Shown piece by piece: positions 38,165 through 63,782 of a stretch of 64,000 nt of DNA. The notes beneath the pieces were generated by a model. The model made no database searches. It was not told where the DNA came from and saw only the letters and a list, made by a program, of their open reading frames with translations. Source of the stretch: Lachnospiraceae bacterium (GTDB taxonomy: Bacteria; Bacillota; Clostridia; Lachnospirales; Lachnospiraceae); contig JAGBEV010000053.1 in NCBI GenBank assembly GCA_017936785.1, forward strand, positions 1 through 64,000, given 5' to 3'. Every line of letters starts with the position of its first letter. The stretch's first letter is position 1. The position numbers and the translations under genes were made by a program.

Positions 38165-39981
38165 TCAGCTTAACCGTTCAATAAACGCTTCTCCGCATAC
38201 AGGTCTGGAATAATAATATCCCTGGAAGAAATCACATCCCATTTCAGTCAGCTTTTCTGCCTGCCCGGCATCTTCCACACCCTCTGCAATGAGCTCCATC
38301 TGCATATCCTTGATCATGGAAATGGTGTGCTTTAAGGCACACATGGCTTTTGAATTTTCCATTGCGGACCATACCATGGACTTATCCAGTTTAATGGTAT
38401 GAAACGGATACTTGATAATGTGCGCTGTATTGGAAAATCCGGTTCCGTGATCTCCAAATTGATATAGTGGTATTCCAGATGATATTCATCCATGATCCGG
38501 AGCAGACTTTCATGTAATCTTTCCTGCATGCACTGAACAGCAGAAAGATTCACATCAATATATTCAATGCCATACTCCCATATTTTCTTTTCAGACATAA
38601 AACGGCATACTTCCCGAAACACAAATTCTCCGATTTCCAGGATCAGCCCGTTTTTTTCTGCCAGCGGGATAAATTCTTCCGGGCTGATAAATCCCATCTC
38701 CCAATGTTTCAGCCTGACCAATGCCTCTGCAGAAACAAACCGTTTCTCCATTACAGAATAGATGGGCTGATAGTATACTTCAAATTTCTTTTCTCTCAGC
38801 GCCTGCTTCATGATCTGAAGAATTTCCTGTTCTCTTCTGCCATCCTTCAGGATATCCTCTCCGGGATAAATGACCACTTCATCTCCTGCCGTTCTCGCCT
38901 GAACCAGAGAATAACCGATCATATCCACCACATCTTCCAATCTGCCTGCGCTATCCGGATAAGAGATCATACACATGGGCACGGATAGGGAAACCTCCAC
39001 ATCCTTGCAGGAAAAAGAACATCGGAATCGTTCATGTATTTTTCCCATGAGCCTTTCCCATTCCTCTTTAGAAGCCTTTGCCATGACCACAAAGCAACTG
39101 CCTGATAAATAAAACACCTTTTTATGTCCTGCCTCATCATTGAGAAATTCTGCAATCTCTTTTAGCAGCTGTTTTTCACTGTCAACACCAAGAGTCTCGC
39201 TGATATATTTCAATCCCTCTACCTGCAATCCCAGCACATCAAAATGTTTTTCCTTTTCAATATAAGAAGAAAGCATTTCCAAAAATGCCATTCTGTTATA
39301 AATCCCCAATTGTCTATCCGAATAATCCTCCGGATTTTCCATGGACAGATAGATCAGCATGACGGAAAGGGCAATGGCAAACTGTATAATCATAAGCTTT
39401 GGAGAGAGCATTTGTACAATGATCGCCACAAGGCTGGAAATAGTATAGCAATAAACCGATGCCTTCTGCAGTCCCGTCAGCTTTTTATGATAAACTATGG
39501 CATAGATCAATGATGATCCCATATAAAAAATCGCAATGACATAAAGTGCCAGCATAAAACTGCCATGCAGATAGACCTTACTTTTATCAAAATAAAAAAC
39601 TCCTTTTGTCCATGGTGTCATAAGGATCAACAGAACAGAAATGGAAATGGGAATTCCCAGGGATACCTTTTCCTTAAGGTTCAGACCTTCTCTCGATTTA
39701 ATGGTAAGAAGAATATAAATAAAATAAATAACAGGGATCGCATTAAAAGCGATCAGATATGCTTCATTGAGCAGATAATTCAGAAACAGATTGACGTGCC
39801 CGCTATGTTCAATGGTATAGATGGTGATCAAATCCAACGCATTAGATATAAACGCTGTCCAGATCAGAAATGAAAATGCTCTGGTCTGGCGCGTATTGAT
39901 AGTTTTTTTATAAAAAAAGTGAAGCATAACTGTAGCCAGGATGATCACTCCTGCCACATCATAATGTATCACATATTTCAT
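38165..39981 (-). pseudogene. GGDEF-EAL c-di-GMP phosphodiesterase, frameshifted in EAL
   Basis: The N-terminal 210 residues have about seven membrane helices. A degenerate GGDEF domain follows, with LSGSCFVV where GGDEF should be. The EAL domain has EALVRL and VNLSAVQ and reaches NLEITE, then leaves frame at about 38444-38452. The correct continuation, DHGTGFSNTAHIIKYPF then KLDKSMVW to the end at 38165, is in another frame. About 30 residues normally between NLEITE and DDFGTG are missing. The start is ATG 39981 behind AAGGGGATCGGAT. It is either a true pseudogene or an assembly error. Confidence 0.85.
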
Positions 39982-48862: not shown

Positions 48863-50284
48863 TCATTTTGTATCATTTCGGTCCAATACCAGTTCCTTAA
48901 AACATTCTCCCCGTTCTTCAAAGTTTTTGAAAATTCCGTAGCTTGCTGCTGCCGGAGATAAAATGCAGCTTCCGCCCTTTGCGGTAATCTCCTTTGCCAG
49001 CTTTACGGCATCTTTCAGGTGTTCTACCACATAAAGCCTTTCCTTTCCCTGAAAGTCCGGCATATTTTTCATGATTTCCTCATAAATCCGCTTTCCTGTA
49101 GCCTCCATTAAAATAATATGGGCAACCTTTGACTGCGAAAGGTATTCTTCAAGGTTTACATAACTAATTTCCCTGTCCATACCCCCGATCAATACTGTAT
49201 CGGCATTTTCAATGGTATTCAATGCCTGTATGGTTGTTTCGTCTATGGTGGAAATGGAATCATCATAATAAGAAATTCCTTCTACTGTTCCGATAAACTG
49301 AAGTCTGTGGGGCAGGGGCACATAGGACCGCAGTCCGCTTAAAAACTGCTCATCACTGATCCCCATATCACAACAGATGCCATATACAAAGGCAATGTCC
49401 AGATAATTGTGCGCTCCCAACAGGCTGATTTCTTCTGTGGGAATGTCAAAAGTCCTTTCTTTATAAACGATCCGTGTTCCCTGCAAAAGGACTTCCTCAT
49501 TGTTTATTCTGTCTTTTTCCTCATCGGCATGGCCGTAACAGCTGACTGCATCTACAAGAATGCTTTTTCCCTTATAAACTCCGCTTTGGGGAGCAACAGA
49601 AGGATGAACATATAATAGATCCCCCTTCGTTTGGTTTACATAAATCTTTTTCTTGGAAGCTACATACTTTTCCATGGTCCCATAATGGTCCAGATGTTCT
49701 TCATAAATGTTGAGCAGAACACCCCGCTTAGGCGAAACCGTCATATATTCCAATTGATGACAGGACAATTCCAGCACAAGAACGGAATCCTCCCTGATCT
49801 CATCCAGAATGTCAAAAACGGGAATCCCGATATTGCCTGCAAGAACTGCAGGCATTCCTGCTTCTTTTAAAATATGGTACAAAAGCGTTGTTGTGGTGCT
49901 CTTTCCTTTCGTTCCGGTTATGCCGATGATCCGGTCCCGGTATACCTCAAACACAAGCTGCATCTGGGAAAGAATCTCTGCATCATATTCCTCTGCCGGC
50001 TTTTCCAAAACGATCCCCGGACTTTTCATGACCAGATCATAATCATCTATGACCTTTTGATACTCCCTGCCACAATGGAGTACGATCTTCGATAAATCCA
50101 TATCCGCAAATGTTTCATCGCTCTCTGCCAGCCGGGAAAGATCGATTTCCTTTACATCTCCTATGGCAAGCTCACCTGCTCCCCCTGCGGACAGAAACAG
50201 CTTTAAGGTGGATCTGCCCTCCCGTCCGAAGCCTAAGATCAGCACTCTTTTATTTTCAATTCTCTTTTTGACAGCCTCAATCAC
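48863..50284 (-). CDS. murD2: MurD2-type UDP-MurNAc-L-Ala--glutamate ligase
   Basis: 473 aa Mur ligase: ATP loop GITGTKGKSTTT (GTKGKST at 124-130), VLELSCHQLEYMTVSPKRGVLLNIYEEHLDHYG, and the C-terminal SYYDDSISTIDETTIQAL and LSPAAASYG. It overlaps the MurL-like gene by 8 bases. MurD2 with MurL forms the alternative route of Xanthomonas, in which MurD2 adds L-Glu and MurL then epimerises it. A GTG start is used behind AGAGGGG. Specificity for L-Glu is inferred only from the MurL neighbour; it could be a second ordinary MurD. Confidence 0.82.
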   Translation of the reverse strand: MIEAVKKRIENKRVLILGFGREGRSTLKLFLSAGGAGELAIGDVKEIDLSRLAESDETFADMDLSKIVLHCGREYQKVIDDYDLVMKSPGIVLEKPAEEYDAEILSQMQLVFEVYRDRIIGITGTKGKSTTTTLLYHILKEAGMPAVLAGNIGIPVFDILDEIREDSVLVLELSCHQLEYMTVSPKRGVLLNIYEEHLDHYGTMEKYVASKKKIYVNQTKGDLLYVHPSVAPQSGVYKGKSILVDAVSCYGHADEEKDRINNEEVLLQGTRIVYKERTFDIPTEEISLLGAHNYLDIAFVYGICCDMGISDEQFLSGLRSYVPLPHRLQFIGTVEGISYYDDSISTIDETTIQALNTIENADTVLIGGMDREISYVNLEEYLSQSKVAHIILMEATGKRIYEEIMKNMPDFQGKERLYVVEHLKDAVKLAKEITAKGGSCILSPAAASYGIFKNFEERGECFKELVLDRNDTK

Positions 50285-51680
50285 AATATGCGCCCCTCTT
50301 TTTCAATTCTTCCACAAATACCGCTTCAAACTGCTCCGGCAGCAGGTTTTCATGATCATAATAATGAAAATATCTGTCACAGACCGGCAGCGTTTTTTCA
50401 TAAAGCCCCATTTGTTTATAATGCTCAAATAAATACGGCAGCTTCTTTTCTTTGGGATAATCCCTGATGGTCAGAGTAACTGCTGCATTGATCTCATCAC
50501 GGCTTCCCACACATTCAAAGGGTTTTTCCTGGGATAATCCGATCAGCTGGTCAAAATACTGCTCCATTTCCGGATTTTCCGCCATATTGGTTCCAAAAAT
50601 CTCTGCCAGCCGCTCCTGTGACAAAAAGGGCGATAAGATCAGCCATACAAACAGGCACTTGGAGCATTTACCGCACCAGATATTTTCCTTGCTGCCTGCG
50701 TTGCAGCTTTTAAATACATCATGATATGCAGGCAGTCCCGCAAAATAAGCTGCGATCTGAAATTCACTTAAAGGACGCAGCAGGCTGAAATAGTATGTGC
50801 CGCTTCCCAGATATTTCTCCTCATATTCATGAAAATCCTTTTCAAACTGAAAGCTTTTGGAATACTGGTGGTTTACATAACTGTCCTTCACTGTGCTTTC
50901 ATTGGCACTGGATTCATTGGACAATACAATATAGGTAAGTCCGTGTAAATAAGCGGTTATGGCAGCCGAAAATGCCACGATCGCCGAAAAAGGGGTATGA
51001 CCGTTTAAATATCCCTCTTTATTCAGACGCAGCATATTGGCATCCAGAGTTCTCTTTACAGCAATGATATGATCTTCTCCATATCCTGCTGCCGCAGCAG
51101 AATCCAATGTAGCGCCTCTGGGATTAATAATATAACAGAAATTATGCTCCTTCCACTTCCTCAGGATTTCCAGGGAAACCGAAGAATCCTTTCCGCCTCC
51201 TACGGGCACCAGACAGCCTTTTGCGGAATTTTTTTCCAAAGAATTTTCCATGGATACTCCATCCCTGCGCTCAGGCAGCCAGACCTCCTCATCTGCCACA
51301 ATGGTCATGAAATCCCTTTCATTTTCTTCTATGCCGTTTGTATAATAAAATTCTCCCAAACCGTTAAAATACAAAGACTTCCACCATGCAATCTGCTCCC
51401 TGGAAAGTCCGTAAGGCTCTATGATGACCTCCTTAGGGCAGGCAATTTTCCAATAACTGATCAGCTCTACCATTCCTAAAGAAAAGACCATATTCAAAAA
51501 AGTCTCGTCCTCTCCTAAATCCTCTTTATGACATGGAATTTCCCATACAGGCGCAAAAGATGACAGACCGGGAATTTCAAAATCGTAAGTCAGACAGACC
51601 TTTCCCGGTTCTTCCGCTATTTCAAAACCATGATAAATAAACTGTTTATATTGCCGGCGCAATGCTTCGTATGTTTTCAC
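50277..51680 (-). CDS. murL: MurL-like UDP-MurNAc-L-Ala-L-Glu epimerase
   Basis: 467 aa. Shows the features I associate with MurL: an ATP-pyrophosphatase-like loop VPVGGGKDSSVSL (GGGKDS at 161-166), YIINPRGATLDSAAAAG, YIVLSNESSANES, VNHQYSKSFQFEKDFH and a CGKCSKCLFVWLIL cysteine motif. MurL inverts the terminal L-Glu of UDP-MurNAc-L-Ala-L-Glu to D-Glu using ATP. A GTG start (51680) is behind AAAGGAAATGTTAAG. It is the first gene of the pair, overlapping murD2 by 8 bases, under a strong promoter. Confidence 0.82.
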   Translation of the reverse strand: MKTYEALRRQYKQFIYHGFEIAEEPGKVCLTYDFEIPGLSSFAPVWEIPCHKEDLGEDETFLNMVFSLGMVELISYWKIACPKEVIIEPYGLSREQIAWWKSLYFNGLGEFYYTNGIEENERDFMTIVADEEVWLPERRDGVSMENSLEKNSAKGCLVPVGGGKDSSVSLEILRKWKEHNFCYIINPRGATLDSAAAAGYGEDHIIAVKRTLDANMLRLNKEGYLNGHTPFSAIVAFSAAITAYLHGLTYIVLSNESSANESTVKDSYVNHQYSKSFQFEKDFHEYEEKYLGSGTYYFSLLRPLSEFQIAAYFAGLPAYHDVFKSCNAGSKENIWCGKCSKCLFVWLILSPFLSQERLAEIFGTNMAENPEMEQYFDQLIGLSQEKPFECVGSRDEINAAVTLTIRDYPKEKKLPYLFEHYKQMGLYEKTLPVCDRYFHYYDHENLLPEQFEAVFVEELKKRGAYCD

Positions 51681-52860: not shown

Positions 52861-53754
52861 CTATTTGAAGGTAACAGTTCCCTTTTCCTGCAAAAATGCC
52901 GGATAATAAGACAGTTTGGCTTTTCTCAAGCCTTCTGCTCCCGTATCCTCTTCCCGGTTAATATAAGTATATTCCGATGCTTCATGAAGAACAAACTGCT
53001 GATTGATCATGGGATATGCTCCCTGAATGTCCGCATATGCCTTCTCAATATGCACCACAAAGGTATCATCACAGAGTTTTTCTCCAATGCTGAAAGCTAC
53101 TACCTTACCGCCTGCCCGGATCAGCCCGCCTACAAGCTGTAACTGCTCCAGTTCTTTTAATGCTCTTAAGGTCACACAAAATTCGGCACTTTTTTCCGGG
53201 TCTGAATCACAGCCGTTTTGCACCCGCCATTCCTGTGCCATGGCAAGACACTCTTCCTTATTCTTTTCTGTAATTCTTTCATATTGATAATCAGGATAGT
53301 TTTTTATAAAGTTGTTAATATGATTTCTCTTCCCATGAAGTTTTTTCCCAGCAAGGGAAATCAGCTTTTCAGACTCATACACATAGTCCGCTGCATCCCT
53401 TTCATACCGGATCTGAAATCTTCCGGGATACATCTGCTCCAGCCGCTCAAATTGCTCAGGAGTTACCAAATGCATACAAAAGGGCTGTTCCTTCTCTTCA
53501 AAATAGGAAATCAGCTTGTCCACAACCCGTTTTGTATTAGTCCTTCCAATGGGAAAGCTGACTGTTATTTCCTCCCTGCCGGATTTAAAAACCAGACTTC
53601 CGTCTATGATACAATATTTTGTTCCATAGAAAGGAGACCATAAAAGGTTGTTGGCAAAGGAATGTTCGCAGCTCCTTGACTGTTCCTTTTCATAAAATTC
53701 CTGAAACAATTCCTCGTCTTCTTCCTTAATTTCCTTCCATTCAAATTCTGACAT
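52861..53754 (-). CDS. DUF2156 (LPG-synthase C-like) protein
   Basis: 297 aa, started at the ATG behind CGGAGGAGAAAG. It resembles the C-terminal acyltransferase-fold domain of lysylphosphatidylglycerol synthases (DUF2156): LAGKKLHGKRNHINNFIKNYP, GGLIRAGGKVVAFSIGE, and AYPMINQQFVLHEASEYTYINREEDTGAEGLRKAKLSYYPAFL. No membrane part is attached. Stand-alone forms probably transfer aminoacyl or acyl groups. It closes the exosortase-region operon, 14 bases after the small Cys-containing gene. Confidence 0.85.
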   Translation of the reverse strand: MSEFEWKEIKEEDEELFQEFYEKEQSRSCEHSFANNLLWSPFYGTKYCIIDGSLVFKSGREEITVSFPIGRTNTKRVVDKLISYFEEKEQPFCMHLVTPEQFERLEQMYPGRFQIRYERDAADYVYESEKLISLAGKKLHGKRNHINNFIKNYPDYQYERITEKNKEECLAMAQEWRVQNGCDSDPEKSAEFCVTLRALKELEQLQLVGGLIRAGGKVVAFSIGEKLCDDTFVVHIEKAYADIQGAYPMINQQFVLHEASEYTYINREEDTGAEGLRKAKLSYYPAFLQEKGTVTFK

Positions 53755-53768
53755 CTTTCTCCTCCGAA

Positions 53769-54065
53769 CTATTTGCATCCGGCGTTGCCTGCATCTTCCA
53801 GCACGTCAAAAGCATCGCCTTTAGCCCATGGGCTTCCCACATCACATCTGCCGTGATGATATGCCTTTGCGCTCTTTCCTGCTTTTACATCTTCTGACAC
53901 TGCTACATTTAATCTGCTGATATCGGAATTTCCGAATTTTTCCAGGATCGCCAGCATGTTTTCAATATCTTCTTCGCTGACTTCCTCCTGTTTTTTCTTC
54001 TCTTCCTCTTCCGCAGCAATCAGGTCTGTAATAAAAACCGGTTCCTTATTATTTTTATCATTCAT
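53769..54065 (-). CDS. 98-aa acidic protein with conserved-looking Cys/His tail
   Basis: Not recognised. RBS GGAGAGGGAAGCTT, start overlapping the wecB end by 8 bases. Residues 17-50 are acidic and helical (EEEEKKKQEEVSEEDIENML). The C-terminal 30 residues are different in character: AYHHGRCDVGSPWAKGDAF, ending AGNAGCK (Cys74 and Cys97, His70 and His71). A leader-plus-core layout recalls RiPP precursors, but no modifying enzyme is nearby. It may also be a metal-binding or redox partner. It is coupled to wecB and the DUF2156 gene. Confidence 0.7.
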   Translation of the reverse strand: MNDKNNKEPVFITDLIAAEEEEKKKQEEVSEEDIENMLAILEKFGNSDISRLNVAVSEDVKAGKSAKAYHHGRCDVGSPWAKGDAFDVLEDAGNAGCK

Positions 54066-55182
54066 AAGCTTCCCTCTCCAATATATCTGCAATCTGTCTG
54101 CTGGCTGTTCCGTCTCCATACGGATTTGCTGCCCGACTCATCATATCATAAATTTCATGATTTTCCACCAAAAGTTTAAATTCTTTATAAATATTTTCCT
54201 TTTTCGTCCCTGCAAGACGCAGCGTTCCCGCTGCTACACCTTCCGGTCTCTCTGTAGTATCCCGCAATACCAGCACCGGTTTTCCCAAGGCAGGAGCTTC
54301 CTCCTGAATACCTCCGCTGTCAGTAAGGATCAAAAAGGAGCGTTCCATAAGATTGTGGAACGTCACAACCTCCATAGGATCGATCAGCCGCACCCTGTCC
54401 ATCCCGGCAAACACTTCATCCGCTGCCTTTCTGACCTGTGGATTGTAATGAACAGGATACACCAGCCTCAAATCCGTATGCTCCAAAAGCACCTGCCTGA
54501 TTCCTCCAAAAATATCATATAAAGGCTGCCCTAAGTTCTCCCTGCGGTGTGCCGTCAGCAAAATCAGCCTCCCGTCGCCCGTCCATCTGTCTATCTCATC
54601 CAATACGGGATCGGAAAAATCCTTGGAAACCGTAGTATGCAGCGCATCAATGGCAGTATTCCCCGTTATAAAAATATGCTCTTTATTCTTTCCTTCCTGT
54701 ATTAAATGTTCTGCCGCCGCCTCTGTAGGTGCAAAATGAAGGGCGGCAATGCTGCCGATTGCCTGTCTGTTAAATTCTTCCGGATATGGTGCATGAATAT
54801 CATAGGTGCGCAGCCCCGCTTCTACATGTCCTACAGGAATATTCATATAAAATGCTGCCAGTGCACTGGCAAAAGCTGTGGAAGTATCTCCATGAACTAA
54901 TACCATATCCGGCTTTTCCCTTGCATAAATTTCCTTCATGCCTTTTAAGACCTTTTCCGTAATATCGAACAAGGTCTGCCCCTGCTCCATGATTTTCAGA
55001 TCATAATCCGGCTTCACGCAGAAGCTGCAAAGCACTTGCTCTAACATTTCCCTATGCTGCCCCGTAACGCATACTATTATACGAAATTTTTCTCTGTTTT
55101 TCAGCTCCTTTACCAGGGGGCACATTTTGATCGCCTCCGGTCTGGTGCCGAAGACAAGAACTATTTTACGTTTTTTCTCCAT
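54058..55182 (-). CDS. wecB: UDP-N-acetylglucosamine 2-epimerase (non-hydrolysing)
   Basis: 374 aa. Interconverts UDP-GlcNAc and UDP-ManNAc for surface polysaccharide synthesis. Motifs: VFGTRPEAIKMCPLVKEL, HGDTSTAFASALAAFY, HVEAGLRTYD, PEEFNRQAIGSIAALHFAPT, LTAHRRENLG and LTDSGGIQEEAP. It is 38 bases after the large membrane protein gene in the exosortase-region operon, so it may supply ManNAc to the glycan built by the glycosyltransferases here. Confidence 0.94.
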   Translation of the reverse strand: MEKKRKIVLVFGTRPEAIKMCPLVKELKNREKFRIIVCVTGQHREMLEQVLCSFCVKPDYDLKIMEQGQTLFDITEKVLKGMKEIYAREKPDMVLVHGDTSTAFASALAAFYMNIPVGHVEAGLRTYDIHAPYPEEFNRQAIGSIAALHFAPTEAAAEHLIQEGKNKEHIFITGNTAIDALHTTVSKDFSDPVLDEIDRWTGDGRLILLTAHRRENLGQPLYDIFGGIRQVLLEHTDLRLVYPVHYNPQVRKAADEVFAGMDRVRLIDPMEVVTFHNLMERSFLILTDSGGIQEEAPALGKPVLVLRDTTERPEGVAAGTLRLAGTKKENIYKEFKLLVENHEIYDMMSRAANPYGDGTASRQIADILEREAYE

Positions 55183-55220
55183 GAGGTCATCTATCCTTTT
55201 TCTCGTTTGTGTTCTGCATT

Positions 55221-57689
55221 TTATTTTCTGTTGTCAGGTTTTTCCCCTGTCAAAATGCCAATTGCTGCCAGCATCCCCAGTATGCTGACACATATTCCCG
55301 GAATGAACAGAGGATATTGAAAGTTGATTCTGGTTTCCCCCGAAGCAACCTGCAGCAAATGGTTTTGCTCCTTTATCTGTCTGGCAGATGTAAAGATATC
55401 CTGATACGCCAGGGTAGTGTTGATCGCCGCATCCTCACAGCCTTCTTCTGCCCAAATCGTAATTCCTTTTGCATCCGCCTCATATTCCACTTCCACCAAG
55501 GTCCTCAGAGGCAGCTGCTCCGTCGGAATTCCCAGTAACTCCGTCATCATTTCTATTACTTCTTCATCTCCGGTTTCCGTTACATGATACATCAGATTTA
55601 AACCCAAATAGCAAATATTGTCATGATCAGAATTCTTTCCTGCAAAAACCAGTTCCTCCCCTTCAAAAGAAAAAGTTCCTACAATATCCATATTGCCGGT
55701 CAGATATCCTGTATTCCATGTAGCATTTTCTTCGGAAAATCCTGCAGTCAGTATTTCCCGGTCATAGTAATTCAAGATAGGAAAGCGTTTTTCAAGAGTA
55801 ACCGCCATGGACGTTACCCCTAAGAAAGTCTGCTGTTTGGTAGTTTCATCTGCCGGCACATGGGTCATATCGATCACAACCCTCACGCCCCTGTCTGAAG
55901 CCTCCTGCAGCAGTTTTTCCGCTGCATCCCTGTCATGATAGGAAAAACCGCTTAAAAAAATGGTTTCATAGTTTAAAAGCTCTTCTAAGGTATAATCATC
56001 CACATAATCGGAATTTCCTTCTGTAAAAGCCGGAAAATACAAAGTCATAATATTGGCATAACTGCCCAGGGCAAGTCCCTGGTATCTGGTGACCATCCCA
56101 AAAGAATCCGGGGTATCCTTTTTGAATAAATAAGCAACATCCGTTGTTCCCACCTGCCTGTAGCCGCTTGCGGCAGCGCCTGCTAAAAGGTCTTCATAGG
56201 TTTTCCCATTTTTCCCTACAAACTGTTTGAATACCAGAACCGTGTCATTTCCCATCTCCAGACATCGGTCAAACAAATAAACATAAGCCTCGTTTTCCAA
56301 TGCCGTATTAAGCATTACGATATTTTCTGATGTTGCCGCTCCCTGCCATGCCCAGCCATAGGTATAATCCACTGCATCAACGCCTCTGCAAAGCTCATAG
56401 GAAGGGTAGGATCCCAGGCTGCTCAAATCCATAATTGCAGCCCTTTGAACTGTATGTTCCTTAACCGCATCCGTATTAACTACCGCATTATATGATGCCT
56501 CTGTCAGATATCTGTCAAACATCAGGGAAGGCACACAGTCTGCAAGCAGGATCAAAACAGCTAACACCCCATACTTCCTTTTCAGGCTTTTCCATTCCAC
56601 CATGGACAAAAAGAAAAATCCATAGACAATGGTAGCAAAGCGCATCATCCAAAACAATTGGTTTAAAGGCATTTTCTTTAAGACCGGCAAAAGCGCCGGA
56701 GTGGTCAGTGCCAATATTACAAGTGACAACACAAATCCCGCTTTTTTCTTATTCTCTGCCAGAAGAATACCTGCCACGGACAAAAATACAACGGCAATGC
56801 CATAATAAAAAGTATCCGTGATCCCGCTGATACGGTTCATGGGATTTAAGGAAACGGACAGATCATACATAAGAGATGCCATGACCCCGGAACTGGATTC
56901 AGGATTCATGGAGACCATTCCTCCCGACAGTGCCGGAATCAGCCATATTCCAGTTAACATAATTCCGCACACCATACTGCCTAAAATCCAGACAGCCCGG
57001 TGAAGTCCCCGGTTTTTATGATAGTCAAACAACAGAAACAGAAATGTGCCCACACCCATCATAGCAGCGATCATCACATGAGAAAGAGTGATCATGGACA
57101 TAGTTAACATAACGCCAATCAATGCCCTCTTTTTACCTTCTCTGATATAAATCCAGAAATAATAGATCAAATAGGGAATCACAATACTCGTAAGCATTCT
57201 GGGCAGATTTCCTTCGCAAAAAAATACTCTGAAATTTTCCGGCATAAAAAACCAAAGTAAGGCAAAGGAAAGCCCCATCCACGGCTTTTCTCCTCTCTTT
57301 CCCATAAGGATAAAAGGAATCCCTCCGAAAAACAGGGATACGCCTGCAAATAAATAATATGCCGTGACCAGCTCTCCCCCTGACAAAAACAGCAGCAGGG
57401 ACATCAGGTAATAAGGAAGAGGCGCCCAGTAACGATAAAGCTGGATACCATTGTACCAGCTGCTTTCATAAAGAGGATACCAGTTTCCTTTTTTGATATT
57501 CTCATACATCACATCAGATTTAAACAGATGCCCCCAGATATCATTTCCCGAAGGCTGGATTCCCTTATTCTTCAGGAAAACCACATAGAAAGCACTGATT
57601 CCAAAGAGCAGTATCAGGCTAAACGCCATTATGAAATTGGGGGATAAAGACTTTTTCAAGCCGCCTTGCTTCTCATTATTTATCGGCAC
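55221..57689 (-). CDS. large multi-pass membrane protein of the exosortase G locus
   Basis: 822 aa. About 11 membrane helices (20-440) resemble YfhO/GT-C-like and the '6-pyruvoyl-tetrahydropterin synthase related' membrane domain. A large extracytoplasmic region (about 440-790) contains an alpha/beta part with IFLSGFSYHDRDAAEKLLQEA and VRVVIDMTHVPADE. The C-terminus has one more helix. Such proteins are conserved beside XrtG as I remember. It may act as a lipid-linked sugar transferase. A GTG start overlaps the pterin-like gene by 14 bases. Confidence 0.75.
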   Translation of the reverse strand: MPINNEKQGGLKKSLSPNFIMAFSLILLFGISAFYVVFLKNKGIQPSGNDIWGHLFKSDVMYENIKKGNWYPLYESSWYNGIQLYRYWAPLPYYLMSLLLFLSGGELVTAYYLFAGVSLFFGGIPFILMGKRGEKPWMGLSFALLWFFMPENFRVFFCEGNLPRMLTSIVIPYLIYYFWIYIREGKKRALIGVMLTMSMITLSHVMIAAMMGVGTFLFLLFDYHKNRGLHRAVWILGSMVCGIMLTGIWLIPALSGGMVSMNPESSSGVMASLMYDLSVSLNPMNRISGITDTFYYGIAVVFLSVAGILLAENKKKAGFVLSLVILALTTPALLPVLKKMPLNQLFWMMRFATIVYGFFFLSMVEWKSLKRKYGVLAVLILLADCVPSLMFDRYLTEASYNAVVNTDAVKEHTVQRAAIMDLSSLGSYPSYELCRGVDAVDYTYGWAWQGAATSENIVMLNTALENEAYVYLFDRCLEMGNDTVLVFKQFVGKNGKTYEDLLAGAAASGYRQVGTTDVAYLFKKDTPDSFGMVTRYQGLALGSYANIMTLYFPAFTEGNSDYVDDYTLEELLNYETIFLSGFSYHDRDAAEKLLQEASDRGVRVVIDMTHVPADETTKQQTFLGVTSMAVTLEKRFPILNYYDREILTAGFSEENATWNTGYLTGNMDIVGTFSFEGEELVFAGKNSDHDNICYLGLNLMYHVTETGDEEVIEMMTELLGIPTEQLPLRTLVEVEYEADAKGITIWAEEGCEDAAINTTLAYQDIFTSARQIKEQNHLLQVASGETRINFQYPLFIPGICVSILGMLAAIGILTGEKPDNRK

Positions 57690-58119
57690 CCTTAATTTCC
57701 TCCAGCAACATATCTGTCAATGAATTTAAAGACTGCATTTCCCCTGTTTCTCCTTCATCGATCAGGCTGATCACGTAGGAGCGGGTAGGAGTCTCACTCA
57801 TTTCCATCATTAAAAATATCCAGCCCTCTTTATTGAGGATCTCCACCAGTTGTTCTTTAAAGTACTCACAGCAATTCTCCAAAGTGGGATTGATCACATC
57901 AAAGGGCTTAATGTCATTTAAAAGCTGATCCTGAAAACGATCCATAAATTCCTCTACTTTTTGTTCCAGCACATGAAACTCTACAAATTCATCCCTGTCC
58001 TTAATCACATTTAAGGTAATCTCCCATGTATGAGGATGTACCTGTCCCCTGACACCATTCATATAAATAGCATGTCTGGCATTCAGATAAAATTTGAATT
58101 TATATTGTTTATAACGCAT
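57676..58119 (-). CDS. 6-pyruvoyl-tetrahydropterin synthase-like protein (copy 1)
   Basis: 147 aa, T-fold type. The three zinc-ligand histidines are recognisable (His16 in ARHA, His28 and His30 in HPHTW). The catalytic cysteine that precedes HGH in QueD is absent and the loop is shortened. It probably does not make pterins. RBS AAGGAGCAGGGGT; 14 bases after the sensor gene and overlapping the large membrane protein. A second copy is at 63330-63782, so the locus is bracketed by these proteins. Confidence 0.82.
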   Translation of the reverse strand: MRYKQYKFKFYLNARHAIYMNGVRGQVHPHTWEITLNVIKDRDEFVEFHVLEQKVEEFMDRFQDQLLNDIKPFDVINPTLENCCEYFKEQLVEILNKEGWIFLMMEMSETPTRSYVISLIDEGETGEMQSLNSLTDMLLEEIKGADK

Positions 58120-58133
58120 ACCCCTGCTCCTTT

Positions 58134-59222
58134 TCAGTTATCATCAAACCCGCTCTTTTCAAAAACCTTCAGAGGATCTTCCCCTTCCAGGACCGGATAC
58201 AGTTTCAATTCCATTTTTAAATTTCTGCTTTTTGAGGATGCTTCCCACTCATCAAGAATTTCCTTTTTCTGCCTCTCTGCCTCCTGCAGACCGGTCTTAT
58301 AGAGAATGGCAACAAATCTTCCTTTGCCCACTTCTGCCATGATCTGGGTACTTTTCAACCGTTCCTTGATAAAATTCATCATACTGAAAATTTCATCCCG
58401 TCCATAATAGCGTTCTTCCATCACTACCCGGGCAAAGAGAAATGTAATGGGAAACAGGGCAGTATCAGAAGACTTCTGCAATAGCACTCTGACCACATCC
58501 ATATCGTAGCAGCCCAATACATTCCTCACATGAGACTCCTGTTGTATCTGGGCATTCATAACCGCTTCCTCCTGCCGCACTTCTTCCTCATATTCCGTAA
58601 ACTGTTCATTTCTTTTCGTCAATTCCACATTTACCTTCGCCAGACTGCGATCTCTGGCATTTAACAGCCCCGTTACAAAAATCAGACCTCCTGCCAAAAT
58701 AAGCACCAGAAGAGAAACAGAAAGTATTATATAAATTTCATGCTTAGTAACCTTAGCAGCGGATAAGGCATGATCCCTGTCTGTAATAATGCCCACCCAA
58801 AGACTTTCTCCTTCATCGGAAAAAAAAGCACCGCTAATTGTCAGGATTTCCTCCTGATCTTCCAGATAAGCAAGAAAACTTTCTGTTTCCGAAAGGGAAT
58901 TCAGATTCCTGGTAGTGGTATCATTTTGGGCAAAAACCACGTTCTCTTCATCGTACAAAAATACCCATCTGCTGCCGGACACCGGAAACTTTTGGCGGAT
59001 AAACCCGATCATTTCCTCCCGGCTCCTGCCCTCCAGGGCAGCTCCCAAAAGCTCCGTTTCCTCCTGTTGTCTATTCTCATATTCCCTGACATAATATACC
59101 TCATTCTGCACCAGTTCGTTTCCGATAAAAACAGCTCCTGCTGCAATAACAAGAAAACATAGGATCAATACCGCCGGCATCCGCTTTTCCTTGTCCGCAA
59201 ACAAAGAAATCATTTTTTTCAT
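58134..59222 (-). CDS. membrane sensor with degenerate GGDEF-like domain
   Basis: 362 aa. TM1 at about 15-35, an extracellular Cache-like domain (about 40-155, with WVFLYDEENVVFAQND), TM2 at about 163-185, a coiled coil (about 190-230) and a C-terminal GGDEF-fold region where VGKGRFVAILYKTGLQEA replaces the GGDEF loop. It should be unable to make c-di-GMP. It may bind it or a ligand, much as PelD does for Pel polysaccharide. It lies between glycosyltransferase and pterin-like genes. Confidence 0.65.
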   Translation of the reverse strand: MKKMISLFADKEKRMPAVLILCFLVIAAGAVFIGNELVQNEVYYVREYENRQQEETELLGAALEGRSREEMIGFIRQKFPVSGSRWVFLYDEENVVFAQNDTTTRNLNSLSETESFLAYLEDQEEILTISGAFFSDEGESLWVGIITDRDHALSAAKVTKHEIYIILSVSLLVLILAGGLIFVTGLLNARDRSLAKVNVELTKRNEQFTEYEEEVRQEEAVMNAQIQQESHVRNVLGCYDMDVVRVLLQKSSDTALFPITFLFARVVMEERYYGRDEIFSMMNFIKERLKSTQIMAEVGKGRFVAILYKTGLQEAERQKKEILDEWEASSKSRNLKMELKLYPVLEGEDPLKVFEKSGFDDN

Positions 59223-59241
59223 AAACAGTTCTCCATCCTGA

Positions 59242-60021
59242 CTATTTTGAAAACCGAAGACTAAAAGCCAGTTTTACACTATTTACCGCAGTCTTCAGTA
59301 CCTTCATCTTACTGGTTCCTTTTTTCTCCTCATAGTGAAGGGAAAATGGAGATTCCATAAACACTGCTCCTGACCGGTACAGCTTGTAAAGCAATTCCGC
59401 CATACAGGTAAATCCGCTTTCTTCAATAAGCTTTTCTCCGTATTTTTCCATTCCCTCCAGCAGAATTTCTCTTTTATAAAGACGATAGCCGCAGGTATAG
59501 TCTCTGACCCCGGGAACTCTCAGGATCAATTCATATACCAACCGTGCTCCCTGGCTGGTCAACAGCCTGTATCCTGCCACTCCATGCACTTCTGATCTCT
59601 TGCAATATCTGGATGCAATGACTACATCAGGATTTTTACCGCTTTCATACATACGATGAAGCATTCCTCCGATATACCTGGGTTTCTGGGTATTATCACA
59701 ATCCATAACGCATACACAGGCACAGTCTTCCTTTGCCGCCGCATAAAAAATTCCTGTTTTCAAAGCTTCTCCCAGCCCCTTATTGACTTCATGGTTGATC
59801 AACGTACAGTTGGGAAACAACCCTTCCATTTTCTCTCCGATTTCCCTGGTTTTGTCGCAGCTTCCGTCATTGACGATGACGATCCTGGTATCCAGATAAA
59901 ATCTGTGGCGAATCTTCTCCTCAAAACGCAGCCAGTCATTTACCAGTTTTTCCACATTTTCTTCTTCATTGTAGGCAGGCAGCACTACATATAACTTTGG
60001 GTTTATGTTATTCCGATTCAT
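59242..60021 (-). CDS. glycosyltransferase family 2 (DPM1-like)
   Basis: 259 aa from the ATG behind GGAGGACAAAGAT; 30 upstream codons are rejected for lack of an RBS. GT-A fold: LYVVLPAYNEEENVEKLV, VIVNDGSCDKT, NHEVNKGLGEALKTG and VCVMDCDNTQKP, the last giving the metal-binding acidic pair. It resembles dolichol/undecaprenyl-phosphate mannosyl- or glucosyltransferases, which charge lipid carriers, but has no membrane helices. It follows the processive transferase by 26 bases. Confidence 0.88.
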   Translation of the reverse strand: MNRNNINPKLYVVLPAYNEEENVEKLVNDWLRFEEKIRHRFYLDTRIVIVNDGSCDKTREIGEKMEGLFPNCTLINHEVNKGLGEALKTGIFYAAAKEDCACVCVMDCDNTQKPRYIGGMLHRMYESGKNPDVVIASRYCKRSEVHGVAGYRLLTSQGARLVYELILRVPGVRDYTCGYRLYKREILLEGMEKYGEKLIEESGFTCMAELLYKLYRSGAVFMESPFSLHYEEKKGTSKMKVLKTAVNSVKLAFSLRFSK

Positions 60022-60047
60022 ATCTTTGTCCTCCATAAAAATTACTA

Positions 60048-61430
60048 TTAAACCTCTTCTTCCCTTATATTCACTTCTTTCCGCAAAACCTCCAGCAGCC
60101 TGGTAAGCCACAGAAAATCATGCCGGATGATATCTTCTGCAATCTCCAGCTCCTCGGTAAAATTCCGCATTCTCCAGGTCGTAGCACCTTTTACGGAATT
60201 GATAATGCCCGCAAACCGGAACCAGAATATCAGAAAATTGTAAAGGGGCAGGAAAAATACCAGATACCATTTTCTTGCATAATATCGTCTCAGATCCTTA
60301 AAATCTGCCAAAAACAAAATAATACAAAAATACAATAAAACCGTAGCAAAAACATATAAAAGATACATAACTGCCACAGACTGGATGATCAGACTGAAAG
60401 GATAATTGATAAATCCCAGACAGATCAGGGCAAAATACCAGATCATCCGCGGAAAAGCGAAGGTATGGTCAAACATGATCAGCCTTATGACAAAATCGGA
60501 AAAGAACCCCTTGACCGGCTCCATCTTTTTCTGCATAAACATATGCATGACTTCCAATTCACCTCTCTGCCAACGCTGTCTCTGGATATAAAGCCTGTTC
60601 ATATCCTCAATAGGGTCCACAAAGAAGATCGCATTGTTACAGAGCGCTACCTTTTCCTTCCGGGAATCCCTGATCTGAAAAGTAACATGGGTATCCTCAC
60701 AGACCGTATCTGTATTATACAGCTGGGTCTTCAGAATAGAAGACTTCCGAAAAGCAGAAAATGCTCCGGATAAGGTAAAAATATTATTAAATTCCGACTG
60801 AAAATTCCTCCCTGCCAAAAATGCCTGACAATATTCAAAAAATTCCAGTTTCCGAAACTGCCGCTTAAAAAATCCTTTCGTCCCATCCACCATTTCAGGA
60901 TTTGTCATAATAGTACCCGTCATACAATGAATCTGAGGATTTTGTTCAAACTTCGTTACCATATTGCGCAAAGCATTTTTTTGCAGCATCCCGTCACTGT
61001 CAATATGGATAATATATTTTCCATAGCTGTTGAACAGAGCCAGATTCAGAGCCTTGGATTTTCCCTGCTTGGAATTTACCCAGTTGATAGTCAATTCCGG
61101 AAATTCCTTCTGACACCTGCAGAACACTTCAAAGCTGTTATCGGTACTCATATTATTCACTAACAAAATATAAATCTGATCATTATCATAATCCGATTCA
61201 TAAATAGACCGGATACAGCGGTACAAGCTGTCTGCTGAATTATAAACCGGAACGATCAGGGTAATTTCCGGAAGAAAAGTAAGTTTCTCCGCTTTTTTTT
61301 GAAATACCTTTTTCTTTAACAGAATAAAGAAATCCGCAACCGTAGGAATCACTTCCATGATAATAGGAATGATGACCCAAGCCGCCCAGAAAAAAATGGA
61401 GCTATGAAAAAACTCACTTATGAATTTCAT
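60048..61430 (-). CDS. processive glycosyltransferase family 2, exosortase G-associated
   Basis: About 460 aa. A membrane helix at the N-terminus (WAAWVIIPIIMEVIPTVADFF), a GT-A domain with ITLIVPVYNSADSL, YIIHIDSDGML (DxD) and VCEDTHVTF (ED), the processivity motif QRQRWQRGELE, and three or more C-terminal helices. This is the layout of polysaccharide synthases such as hyaluronan or cellulose synthase without PilZ. A transferase of this kind is a recognised neighbour of XrtG. The start overlaps XrtG by 17 bases; an upstream start is also possible. Confidence 0.88.
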   Translation of the reverse strand: MKFISEFFHSSIFFWAAWVIIPIIMEVIPTVADFFILLKKKVFQKKAEKLTFLPEITLIVPVYNSADSLYRCIRSIYESDYDNDQIYILLVNNMSTDNSFEVFCRCQKEFPELTINWVNSKQGKSKALNLALFNSYGKYIIHIDSDGMLQKNALRNMVTKFEQNPQIHCMTGTIMTNPEMVDGTKGFFKRQFRKLEFFEYCQAFLAGRNFQSEFNNIFTLSGAFSAFRKSSILKTQLYNTDTVCEDTHVTFQIRDSRKEKVALCNNAIFFVDPIEDMNRLYIQRQRWQRGELEVMHMFMQKKMEPVKGFFSDFVIRLIMFDHTFAFPRMIWYFALICLGFINYPFSLIIQSVAVMYLLYVFATVLLYFCIILFLADFKDLRRYYARKWYLVFFLPLYNFLIFWFRFAGIINSVKGATTWRMRNFTEELEIAEDIIRHDFLWLTRLLEVLRKEVNIREEEV

Positions 61431-62007
61431 AACGGAACGCACCCACTTTCTGTCTGATAATCTGGGATTTGGTAAATACATAAAAATACAATGTTATGGT
61501 ACATGCATAAAAAACCAGTCTGCCGATAATCGTATGGGCAAGGAAATACATCTCTCCCCCAAAGCAATAGATCGTAAAACAGATAACAAAAATCCTTAAA
61601 ACATTGGAAGCAAAAATCAACAAAGCCCCTGCAATGCTGACCACGATCTTCTCATATAACCGATACACAGGAAAAAACCACAACAAAGCAATAAAAGCCA
61701 TTGTTTCGATAATGCCCGAACATTCAAAGTCGATATACAAAGACAGGTTTGTTCCCCCCGAAGAAATGAAAATAATCCCTTTTTGAAAATATGATTCATA
61801 CAGACCTGTCAACTGACCCAATATGCCTGAAACCGCCGCAACGGCTTTCTGCATAGGACCAACGACTATAGGTTCTATCCATATAATGGAAAAAATAAAG
61901 AATCCAACACTACCTGTGATAAAATACCAGAAATCAAGCTTGCCTCTTTTTTGTACGGTCAGCAGATATATCCAAAGGATAAAGATCAAAATGCTAAACC
62001 AGTTCAT
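61414..62007 (-). CDS. xrtG: exosortase family protein XrtG
   Basis: 197 aa with about six membrane helices. The exosortase catalytic residues are in place: Cys96 in YIDFECSGI, Arg138 in SNVLRIF, and His158 with Arg163 in AHTIIGRLVF. XrtG is the Gram-positive exosortase that is thought to recognise Firmicu-CTERM tails and to cleave or glycan-link them. The gene before it (overlap 4 bases) encodes such a tail. Biochemical proof for XrtG is lacking as far as I know. Confidence 0.9.
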   Translation of the reverse strand: MNWFSILIFILWIYLLTVQKRGKLDFWYFITGSVGFFIFSIIWIEPIVVGPMQKAVAAVSGILGQLTGLYESYFQKGIIFISSGGTNLSLYIDFECSGIIETMAFIALLWFFPVYRLYEKIVVSIAGALLIFASNVLRIFVICFTIYCFGGEMYFLAHTIIGRLVFYACTITLYFYVFTKSQIIRQKVGAFRYEIHK

Positions 62008-63302
62008 GATAAGCCCTTATCATCCTTTCTTTTCTTAGCCAAAAATCCAGCTGCAATGATCAATGCCGCCAAAGCTCCCAGCCAGGGGCCTGTAGGTGTA
62101 CCCGAGATTTCCACACCTTCTGCGCCAATATTGGGATTGTTCAAACGGATTGTAGACATCTGATCTACCGGTACTCCCGTAATCTCCGACAGACGCTCAA
62201 GGCTTAAGGAAAATTCAATTTCATCCCCTTTCCCTTCCATAGTATGTGCTTCATCATATATGGTAAATGCCACATCCCCGTCACAGGAAGGGTAATAGCC
62301 TACAAAAACATCAAAATTCGTATGAGTTCCTTCTCCCCAGCTGGTTCCAGAATTGCTCCAGTCGATATCGCCGCTTGGGGTCACCGGCAAAATCTGCAAC
62401 GGATATGTATTGCCGTTGATCTGCAGATTCCAAATCTGGATCTTCATCTGCGCCGTATACAAGTCGCTCATGGAAAAATGGGCATATAATCTGTCTCCTT
62501 CGATGGCAAGCTGCCCCATATGAACCGAATGTGTATTGTTACCGTTATATGTAATTTCTGTTCTGGGATAACCTGACCATTCCCCATAATATCCGTCCAC
62601 AGTAAGTTTCGAAGTCACAACCGGAGGTTTTTCTTCTCCGCCGCCTTCAGTACTGCCTGTATCTTCGCCGCCTTCATCCTTGCCTACCGTTCCGTCAGCC
62701 AGGCTTCCGCCGGTACTGCCGTCTGTTTGATTGCTGTCCCTGTCCCCGGCTTCATCCCCTGTATTGTCTTTTGTATTATCATTGTCCTCTTTGCCTTCAC
62801 CGCCGTTTTGTGCCTCTCCGTTTATGGCTACTTCCGCCCTGCCGCCGTTCCATCCGAAGGACATGGTGGAAATTCCCTCTCCGCCATAGGCACTGACCGG
62901 TATTTTAATGGACCAGTTCATGAAACCATAACCATAATCCGGCAAAGGATTTATATTTTGTACAGTTCCTTCCGCCCCGCCGATAGGCTGTCCCCAGGCA
63001 TTATACACCTGAAACATCCCGCCTTCTCCGCCATTGCCTGTATTCAAAACAATATTGGACATGGAGCCGTTTACAGGAACCCCATTGACTGCCACACTGA
63101 TCTGTGTTCCCAGATAATTTGACCAGGGTCCCTGATAATTCATATAAACAAATGTACCATCTGTAGTTACCTCCAGGGCTCCCCCATCAGAGGCCTGTAT
63201 ATTCTGTGCTGCCACATCGGTAACGTAGATTCCAAACATAACAACAAATGCAGTCAAAACTGCAAGACTTTTTTTCATAACACGAAATATTTTCATCTGC
63301 AT
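62004..63302 (-). CDS. secreted protein with Firmicu-CTERM sorting signal
   Basis: 432 aa. Signal peptide at 9-32 (ending VTDVAAQ). An N-terminal beta-rich domain (about 40-165: YMNYQGPWSNYLGTQISV) is followed by a low-complexity acidic Gly/Asn/Asp/Thr linker (about 168-232). A second domain (about 236-400) starts LTVDGYYGEWSGYPRTEITY and recalls carbohydrate-binding DOMON/CBM9-like folds. The C-terminus is TPTGPWLGALAALIIAAGFLAKKRK: a short PTG motif, a helix and a basic tail. It is the probable single substrate of the adjacent XrtG. Confidence 0.85.
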   Translation of the reverse strand: MQMKIFRVMKKSLAVLTAFVVMFGIYVTDVAAQNIQASDGGALEVTTDGTFVYMNYQGPWSNYLGTQISVAVNGVPVNGSMSNIVLNTGNGGEGGMFQVYNAWGQPIGGAEGTVQNINPLPDYGYGFMNWSIKIPVSAYGGEGISTMSFGWNGGRAEVAINGEAQNGGEGKEDNDNTKDNTGDEAGDRDSNQTDGSTGGSLADGTVGKDEGGEDTGSTEGGGEEKPPVVTSKLTVDGYYGEWSGYPRTEITYNGNNTHSVHMGQLAIEGDRLYAHFSMSDLYTAQMKIQIWNLQINGNTYPLQILPVTPSGDIDWSNSGTSWGEGTHTNFDVFVGYYPSCDGDVAFTIYDEAHTMEGKGDEIEFSLSLERLSEITGVPVDQMSTIRLNNPNIGAEGVEISGTPTGPWLGALAALIIAAGFLAKKRKDDKGLS

Positions 63303-63329
63303 TCGTCCTCTCTCTGCTTTCTGCTATCC

Positions 63330-63782
63330 TCACAATCTATGCTTTAATGCCATTAACCGGCGTTTTCTTTTTAGAATATTCTCAAAATTTTTCCCGCTTT
63401 CCTCCATGCTCATGGTTGGCAGCAGAATCCGGTCGGAAACCTGATATACACATAAGGGATTCTCCGAAATATCCAATTGGTACAGAGCAAGTCCCACTTC
63501 TTTCAGCCGCTCCCACAATGCTTCATAAAAAACATCGCCCATATTTTCAATATTGGGTTCCTTTCCTGCGAATTCAGGCATGGCATTCAGGTACTGCCCC
63601 CGGAAATTAGTAAAATATGCTTTTACAATGGCATCCATTTCAAAAAAAGGAATATCCTGTCCCCTTTCAATGCCGCCAATATACAAAACAACCGTAAAAG
63701 TATGGGAATGTGCCTTCTCTCTTTGATTCCGGAAGCTGTGCTCGGCATTGAAATAATATTTATAAACATAATATTGAAACAT
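63330..63782 (-). CDS. 6-pyruvoyl-tetrahydropterin synthase-like protein (copy 2)
   Basis: 150 aa T-fold protein, first gene of the exosortase-region operon. Zinc-ligand histidines His15 (AEHS), His25 and His27 (HSHTF) are kept, but the catalytic Cys of QueD is absent. Its sequence differs clearly from copy 1, so the two are not a recent duplication. RBS AAAGGACAGATAGTCAGA. XrtG loci typically contain one such protein; two is notable. An AT-rich stretch upstream has TATAAA but no clear -35. Confidence 0.82.
   Translation of the reverse strand: MFQYYVYKYYFNAEHSFRNQREKAHSHTFTVVLYIGGIERGQDIPFFEMDAIVKAYFTNFRGQYLNAMPEFAGKEPNIENMGDVFYEALWERLKEVGLALYQLDISENPLCVYQVSDRILLPTMSMEESGKNFENILKRKRRLMALKHRL

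Follow-up and report, generated by a model that had tools for sequence, protein, structure and literature searches.

A row of eleven open reading frames (ORFs) encoding exosortase G (XrtG) and a Firmicu-CTERM partner protein, together with glycosyltransferases and associated proteins, lies on the minus strand of the 64,000-nucleotide stretch of Lachnospiraceae DNA analyzed here (the window), from 63782 to 52861. The tight packing described in an earlier note was confirmed on reading the ORFs: neighbors overlap in several places and are otherwise no more than 38 bases apart. A divergent GntR/ABC operon lies on the 5′ side, so the row starts at 63782, and a convergent AraC gene lies downstream. 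The first gene (63330-63782) encodes a pterin-synthase-like protein, PTPS1, that matches TIGR03112 (86.5 bits; cut-off 69.35) and PF01242 (50.2 bits) and retains zinc-type His residues without the catalytic Cys. It is followed by the Firmicu-CTERM protein (62004-63302; TIGR04145, 137.8 bits; cut-off 50), XrtG (61414-62007; TIGR03110, 203.5 bits; cut-off 102.75), the XrtG-associated GT2 glycosyltransferase GTA (60048-61481; TIGR03111, 652.8 bits; cut-off 363.95) and a second GT2 enzyme, GTB (59242-60111). The true starts of GTA and GTB probably lie further downstream than the listed ATG and GTG, respectively. Next are a putative membrane sensor (58134-59222), a second pterin-synthase-like protein, PTPS2 (57676-58119; TIGR03112, 147.7 bits), an 822-residue membrane protein (55221-57689; PF10131, PTPS_related, 619 bits), here termed the GT-C enzyme, and WecB, a non-hydrolyzing UDP-GlcNAc 2-epimerase (54058-55182; TIGR00236, 497.9 bits; cut-off 210.15). 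PF01242 was matched twice in the row. The five matches to TIGR03110, TIGR03111, TIGR03112 and TIGR04145, all above the NCBIfam cut-offs in one gene row, bear out the claim that the XrtG system is complete, with two pterin-synthase-like proteins and glycan-synthesis genes alongside. Across the whole genome, one Firmicu-CTERM protein, two TIGR03112 proteins (both in this row) and one WecB were found.

In the window XrtG, Cys96, Arg138 and His158 are intact, as had been reported from inspection of the letters, and the protein scores 54.5 bits against the superfamily model TIGR04178. The TIGR04145 match is unique in the genome and adjoins xrtG, in agreement with the suggestion of a single sorted protein. 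This protein comprises, in order, an N-terminal hydrophobic stretch, a beta domain, a Gly-rich linker, a putative CBM9-like domain (residues ∼232-402), a GTPTG motif, a C-terminal hydrophobic helix and a basic tail; no Pfam CBM family was matched in 36 CTERM proteins or in eight distant or fused ones. The CTERM tail at one relative locus (L060) scored 16.5 bits with the LPXTG anchor model, above its cut-off of 15.9.

XrtG is sparsely distributed. At a threshold of E 0.001, it was matched in 4 of 61 genomes comprising the window's own and its relatives, in 15 of 398 genomes across the phylum (10 above the cut-off), in 29 of 397 family genomes and in 14 of 63 genomes in the class of genome G075. 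Within the window's genus, 3 of 9 genomes (own included) carry XrtG. Regions were taken from 39 of the XrtG genomes of the phylum and family searches plus one with a weak match (G165), and G448 was left out. After removal of two duplicates (L014 and L017, of L098 and L085, respectively) and of L097, where a 23.6-bit match was not XrtG, and with the weak L031 and L058 uncounted, 36 loci including the window were compared. These loci were chosen by XrtG, which is thus present in all by construction, and the labeling profiles started from the proteins of the window and were refined over these same loci; because contig ends cut some of them, the counts are lower bounds. CTERM, XrtG and GTA were labeled in all 36, the GT-C enzyme in 33, PTPS2 in 32 and a sensor-like protein in 30; labels were less frequent for PTPS1 (14), a GTB relative (11), WecB (4) and the 98-residue and DUF2156-type proteins considered below (3 each). 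A recurrent neighbor of ∼700-744 residues occurs in seven loci, and the two members scanned were without a Pfam match. Two contigs of one metagenome-assembled genome (SUG1695; L011 and L012) both have an xrtG locus, and their XrtG sequences are close to one another; this represents either two copies or a strain mixture.

The processive-type QRQRW motif proposed for one GT2 enzyme is present in GTA, along with DSDG and EDT. The GT2 motifs are complete in 43 of 45 GTA ORFs, EDT being missing from L079 and L083; the short contig L090 contributes no GTA ORF. GTB scored 52 bits with the PpgS equivalog model NF058614 (cut-off 370), a likeness of kind only to polyprenyl-phosphate sugar synthases. For the 822-residue protein, structural comparison of a predicted model gave a GT-C fold, with STT3 subunits as the best matches, protein O-mannosyltransferases (PMT) close behind, and AftD and ArnT also on the list. 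PF10131 is placed in the Pfam GT-C clan CL0111 in the part of the source available (PMC7801869). The acidic residue that we take to lie in the first outer loop of GT-C enzymes is Asp50 in the window, and the 46 aligned ORFs have Asp in 36, Glu in 4, Ala in 3, Asn in 1 and a gap in 2. The C-terminal region (∼458-730) resembles a domain of GH42-type enzymes. Comparison of the GT-C profile with Protein Data Bank sequences returned chance-level rows only. TIGR03766, which the earlier note had listed among the models for this locus, gave no match at E 0.01 or better with this protein or any of 20 alignment members (window included), the presence of that model in the library being unchecked.

WecB had been put forward as an additional part of the system, and here the comparison of neighborhoods is favorable. 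Four of the 36 loci (the window, L009, L010 and L060) have WecB, and these same four have a GTB immediately following GTA; neither feature is present in the remaining 32. Given this strict co-occurrence, WecB looks like a genuine added part of the system and was assigned to the island defined below. Since seven XrtG rows including the window form a well-supported set to which the L060 XrtG does not belong, the pair may, to judge from the tree, have joined the system more than once. Within the genus, the WecB above cut-off is encoded by the island in each of the three genomes that have one and lies elsewhere in G004; the match in G008 (98.6 bits) is under the cut-off. Two further kinds of partner were seen beside GTA. 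In L067 (6717-9653) and L072 (10335-13208), GTA is joined in one ORF to an OpgB-like (phosphoglycerol transferase I) domain, which scores 181.6 and 154.7 bits, respectively (cut-off 572), with Pfam Sulfatase above its cut-off in both; in L064 and L068, a YfhO protein (611 and 602 bits) sits between GTA and PTPS2. OpgB-like and YfhO proteins are enzyme kinds that decorate glycans outside the membrane.

Two TIGR03112 domains were found in 26 of the 36 loci and one in the remaining 10. The zinc-type His triad is complete in 32 of 32 proteins of the PTPS2 alignment and 15 of 16 of the PTPS1 alignment, and Cys is absent from the catalytic place in all 48; this place, presumably four residues before the second zinc His, fits the alignment. 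The PTPS2 alignment held 32 of 38 PTPS2-labeled ORFs, four others having been dropped (two duplicates, one fusion and one long form) and two moved to the PTPS1 alignment, where they joined 14 of 15 PTPS1-labeled ORFs; the two labels are not sharply separated. The pterin-synthase-like proteins of the island share with QueD and 6-pyruvoyl-tetrahydropterin synthase the PF01242 match and the His triad but differ in the missing Cys. In addition, a PTPS domain is fused to another protein of the system in 21 ORFs: the GT-C enzyme in 15 (eight in distant loci), the sensor-like protein in five, where the domain is fused to its C-terminal side, and CTERM in one (L060). From these patterns, we infer that the TIGR03112 domains probably bind a ligand as components of the machine and do not make pterins.

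The product of 58134-59222 had been read as a degenerate GGDEF sensor. A sensor-like membrane layout, with two hydrophobic stretches around an outer domain followed by a cytoplasmic domain, was evident, but its GGDEF identity is unproven: the window protein gave no GGDEF match in Pfam or NCBIfam, a single one of 30 family members matched PF00990 (E 0.025, weak; not the window protein), and hhalign comparison of the family with a GGDEF profile gave probabilities of 4.1% and 3.9%. None of the 17 GGDEF matches in the genome lies in this gene row; one weak match (37.1 bits; cut-off 23.8) is found elsewhere in the window at 38881-39318.

The extent of the system was defined by comparison with G004, a congener without xrtG. 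In G004 (L174), MurD, MurL-like, AraC, DUF2156, 98-residue and ABC genes stand in a row, with GntR just before ABC. On alignment, ∼9.9 kb of the window stands opposite ∼190 bases of G004, and the points at which DNA homology resumes are ∼70 bases ahead of GntR and, at the opposite edge, within the 98-residue gene. The last two ORFs of the row, encoding the 98-residue protein (53769-54065; the HHGRCDVGSPWA family) and the DUF2156-type protein (52861-53778; Pfam LPG_synthase_C, PF09924, 186.8 bits), had been considered as additional parts. Both genes persist in G004 at the same site, between AraC and GntR/ABC, and the 3 of 36 loci in which they accompany xrtG all belong to the window's genus; as system parts they were ruled out by this empty site and by their distribution. 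They were judged to be chromosomal flanks, and the system is trimmed to a nine-gene island, 54058-63782. Of the comparison of xrtG neighborhoods, then, the part concerning WecB stood and that concerning the other two genes did not. Given that six of the nine genus genomes are without the island, which is present in the window, G002 and G006, the simplest reading is gain in the ancestor of these three, with loss as the alternative.

In more distant relatives, a substrate-like domain was found joined to XrtG in ten rows (L087, L088, L090, L091, L092, L187, L191, L192, L193 and L194), recognized by the pattern DGx[FYW]..DW on the N-terminal side of XrtG. In all ten the catalytic Cys is replaced (by Asn in nine and Ser in one); every one retains the Arg, and the nine that extend far enough retain the His. 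Among the other XrtGs, which include the XrtG-GTA fusion L096, Cys, Arg and His are present in 47 of 47 and Cys is replaced in none. The fused rows form one clade in the tree (99/94, one change), for which a long-branch warning applies to L189, L083 and L068; the ten rows are thus one evolutionary event, not ten. The contig of L087 is only 3089 bases, and L193 is truncated at the end of its contig. The free protein of L089 is 38% identical to the substrate half of the L088 fusion (E 4e-42), the match stopping at the tail motif; past this point the fused form continues into the first helix of XrtG, and the sorting tail is lost. The distant substrate domains match TIGR04145 weakly and under the cut-off (E 0.0008 and 0.009). 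No second XrtG was found in the fusion genomes at E 0.001 in the phylum and class searches, both matches in G839 being fused. The rest of the machinery accompanies the fusions where it could be read: GTA with its motifs in four loci (L087, L088, L091 and L092) and a PTPS-GT-C ORF in four (L088, L090, L091 and L092). In L091 (5615-9114), the GT-C ORF is in two pieces of 940 and 225 residues, through either a genuine break or a fault of assembly. At the level of sequence, this clade shows that a lineage can apparently dispense with both tail and catalytic Cys if the substrate domain is tied to XrtG. In genome searches nine of the ten fusions exceed the TIGR03110 cut-off (the shortened L193 lies below it), so automatic annotation may name these Cys-less proteins XrtG; as whole proteins, L088 is above the cut-off and L092 just short of it.

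Other joined ORFs were also observed. In L086, L093, L094 and L095, one ORF comprises the GT-C enzyme, a hydrophobic helix, a signal-peptidase-like site (such as ALA-AD or VLA-AE) between the halves, a DGxFxDW domain and a PVPxLGY tail; three of the four have an N-terminal PTPS domain as well, the L095 ORF being without its N-terminal half. XrtG and GTA share one ORF in L096.

Taken together, the hidden Markov model (HMM) scores, the GT-C fold of the model, the co-occurrence of genes at the loci, the WecB/GTB pairing, the OpgB-like and YfhO relatives, the joined ORFs, the Cys-less fusions and the absence of the island from G004 support the following reading, which we hold tentatively and at slightly under even probability: the nine-gene island of this gut bacterium would encode a membrane machine for an extracytoplasmic glycan, in which XrtG re-anchors a glycan-holding CBM9-like protein beside the synthase. 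From these data we infer a course in which GTA would polymerize the glycan across the membrane. WecB would supply UDP-ManNAc to GTB, the product of GTB would be a polyprenyl-phosphate sugar, and the GT-C enzyme would add that sugar to the glycan outside. The Firmicu-CTERM protein, by way of its CBM9-like domain, would hold the glycan at the surface, and XrtG would cut the CTERM tail near the GTPTG motif and re-anchor the protein in the membrane, probably on a lipid by analogy with archaeosortase. The TIGR03112 domains may act as cytoplasmic ligand-binding modules coupling parts of the machine to a signal. In the distant clade, permanent fusion of substrate to XrtG would make the Cys dispensable.

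A more specific proposal, which we consider rather doubtful as it stands, is that XrtG serves a glycan-synthase complex as its docking subunit. The role of its Cys chemistry would be to fix the CBM9-like partner in the membrane at the synthase, perhaps through a long-lived enzyme-substrate linkage, and one clade would have made this linkage permanent by fusion, losing tail and Cys and keeping Arg, His and the rest of the machine.

The evidence bears on three other explanations. A caveat to the fusion evidence is a second Cys seven residues on (in sequences of the ENSGLLEIC type), which none of the ten fused rows has lost and which also occurs in the unfused L089, L185, L186, L188 and L190. The fused enzymes might use this residue, or might have drifted to another use, and would then be uninformative on canonical XrtG. 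That the fusions are confined to one clade favors such a view, but the retention of Arg and His, and of motif-complete GTA and PTPS-GT-C ORFs in four fused loci each, argues against it, and on balance we find it doubtful. A simpler role, in which XrtG merely clips the CTERM protein, freeing it or handing it to the wall, and the glycan genes are neighbors by co-regulation, would agree with the view of exosortases as proteases or transpeptidases taken in the available part of PMC1569441 and with the LPXTG-like score of the L060 tail. It is difficult to reconcile with the joint presence of CTERM, XrtG and GTA in all 36 XrtG-chosen loci and of GT-C near them in 33, with the GT-C-substrate, substrate-XrtG and XrtG-GTA ORFs, or with the persistence in one clade of a form that has neither Cys nor tail and is joined to XrtG. 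Such a form is compatible with a sorting product that stays in the membrane beside the synthase, and agrees poorly with one leaving for the wall or medium. Clipping alone appears highly improbable.

The remaining explanation is that of the earlier note, in which the glycan is attached to the sorted protein. Here, the GT-C enzyme would be a protein glycosyl- or oligosaccharyltransferase loading the glycan on the CTERM protein; XrtG would then transfer this protein to an acceptor and so yield one glycosylated surface protein. The rank of STT3 subunits and protein O-mannosyltransferases among the structural matches, the union of GT-C and substrate domain in one ORF at four loci and the single CTERM protein of the genome are consistent with this. 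However, the same structural list includes AftD and ArnT, enzymes with glycan or lipid substrates, and the fold alone is silent on the acceptor; the GT-C-substrate ORFs, with their signal-peptidase-like sites, may be polyproteins; and the OpgB-like and YfhO relatives point to a decorated polymer. Attachment of the glycan to the sorted protein is possible but, in our judgment, unlikely, and a membrane-held glycan-binding protein is favored over it.

The window thus extends the known XrtG/Firmicu-CTERM system, with which it shares the four models above cut-off, by GTB after GTA and by WecB, and its genes form an island whose site is empty in a congener. A passage of PMC12854382, our only source for the L. 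plantarum system, lists a CTERM protein, XrtG and two associated glycosyltransferases together, as in the window, and reports over-expression of their transcripts in interferon-inducing strains and no mutant; the window differs from that description in its stand-alone PTPS proteins, its sensor-like protein and WecB. The archaeosortase that lipid-anchors its substrates, according to the portion available of PMC7157517, belongs to the same enzyme superfamily (TIGR04178), whereas a lipid anchor for the window protein is suggested by analogy. Exosortase G-associated GT2 appears as a table row in PMC8951740, and in the accessible text of the 2006 PEP-CTERM/EpsH paper, no Firmicutes example of the sorting signal is reported (PMC1569441). 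No experimental test of XrtG was found in the parts available of the open-licence literature, which proves no absence, and no paper dealing together with an exosortase, a fusion and the catalytic cysteine was found within that literature. What is new here is the distant clade that fuses the substrate domain to XrtG and has neither sorting tail nor catalytic Cys. These natural fusions hint at the purpose of the sorting step and turn it into a testable statement, namely that a membrane-anchored fusion can replace the product of the reaction. For the chemist, the OpgB-like, YfhO, GTB and WecB links define a target: a surface glycan that may bear lipid-carried sugar or glycerol-phosphate substituents.

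The flanking genes have histories of their own. The 98-residue protein, which gave no match in NCBIfam and Pfam scans, belongs to a family with the motif HHGRCDVGSPWAxG (relatives L100-L118) found in 29 of 250 family genomes, one match each. Its gene adjoins AraC without xrtG in L176, L177, L178 and L179 (L175 starts too close to a contig end to judge), and in 20 loci of its relatives xrtG, wecB or DUF2156 was labeled within five genes in none, and there was no constant neighbor. DUF2156 relatives occur in all nine genus genomes, of which only the copies in G002, G006 and G004 are close (72-78% identity). Beyond AraC, the window carries MurD (48863-50284; 317 bits, above cut-off) beside a MurL-like protein (50277-51680; 255 bits to the Xanthomonadales MurL model, cut-off 700). 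Good MurD and MurL matches adjoin in L174 and L178, with weaker MurL matches in L176, L177 and L179, and a MurD/MurL route for glutamate in peptidoglycan is possible on the strength of these matches.

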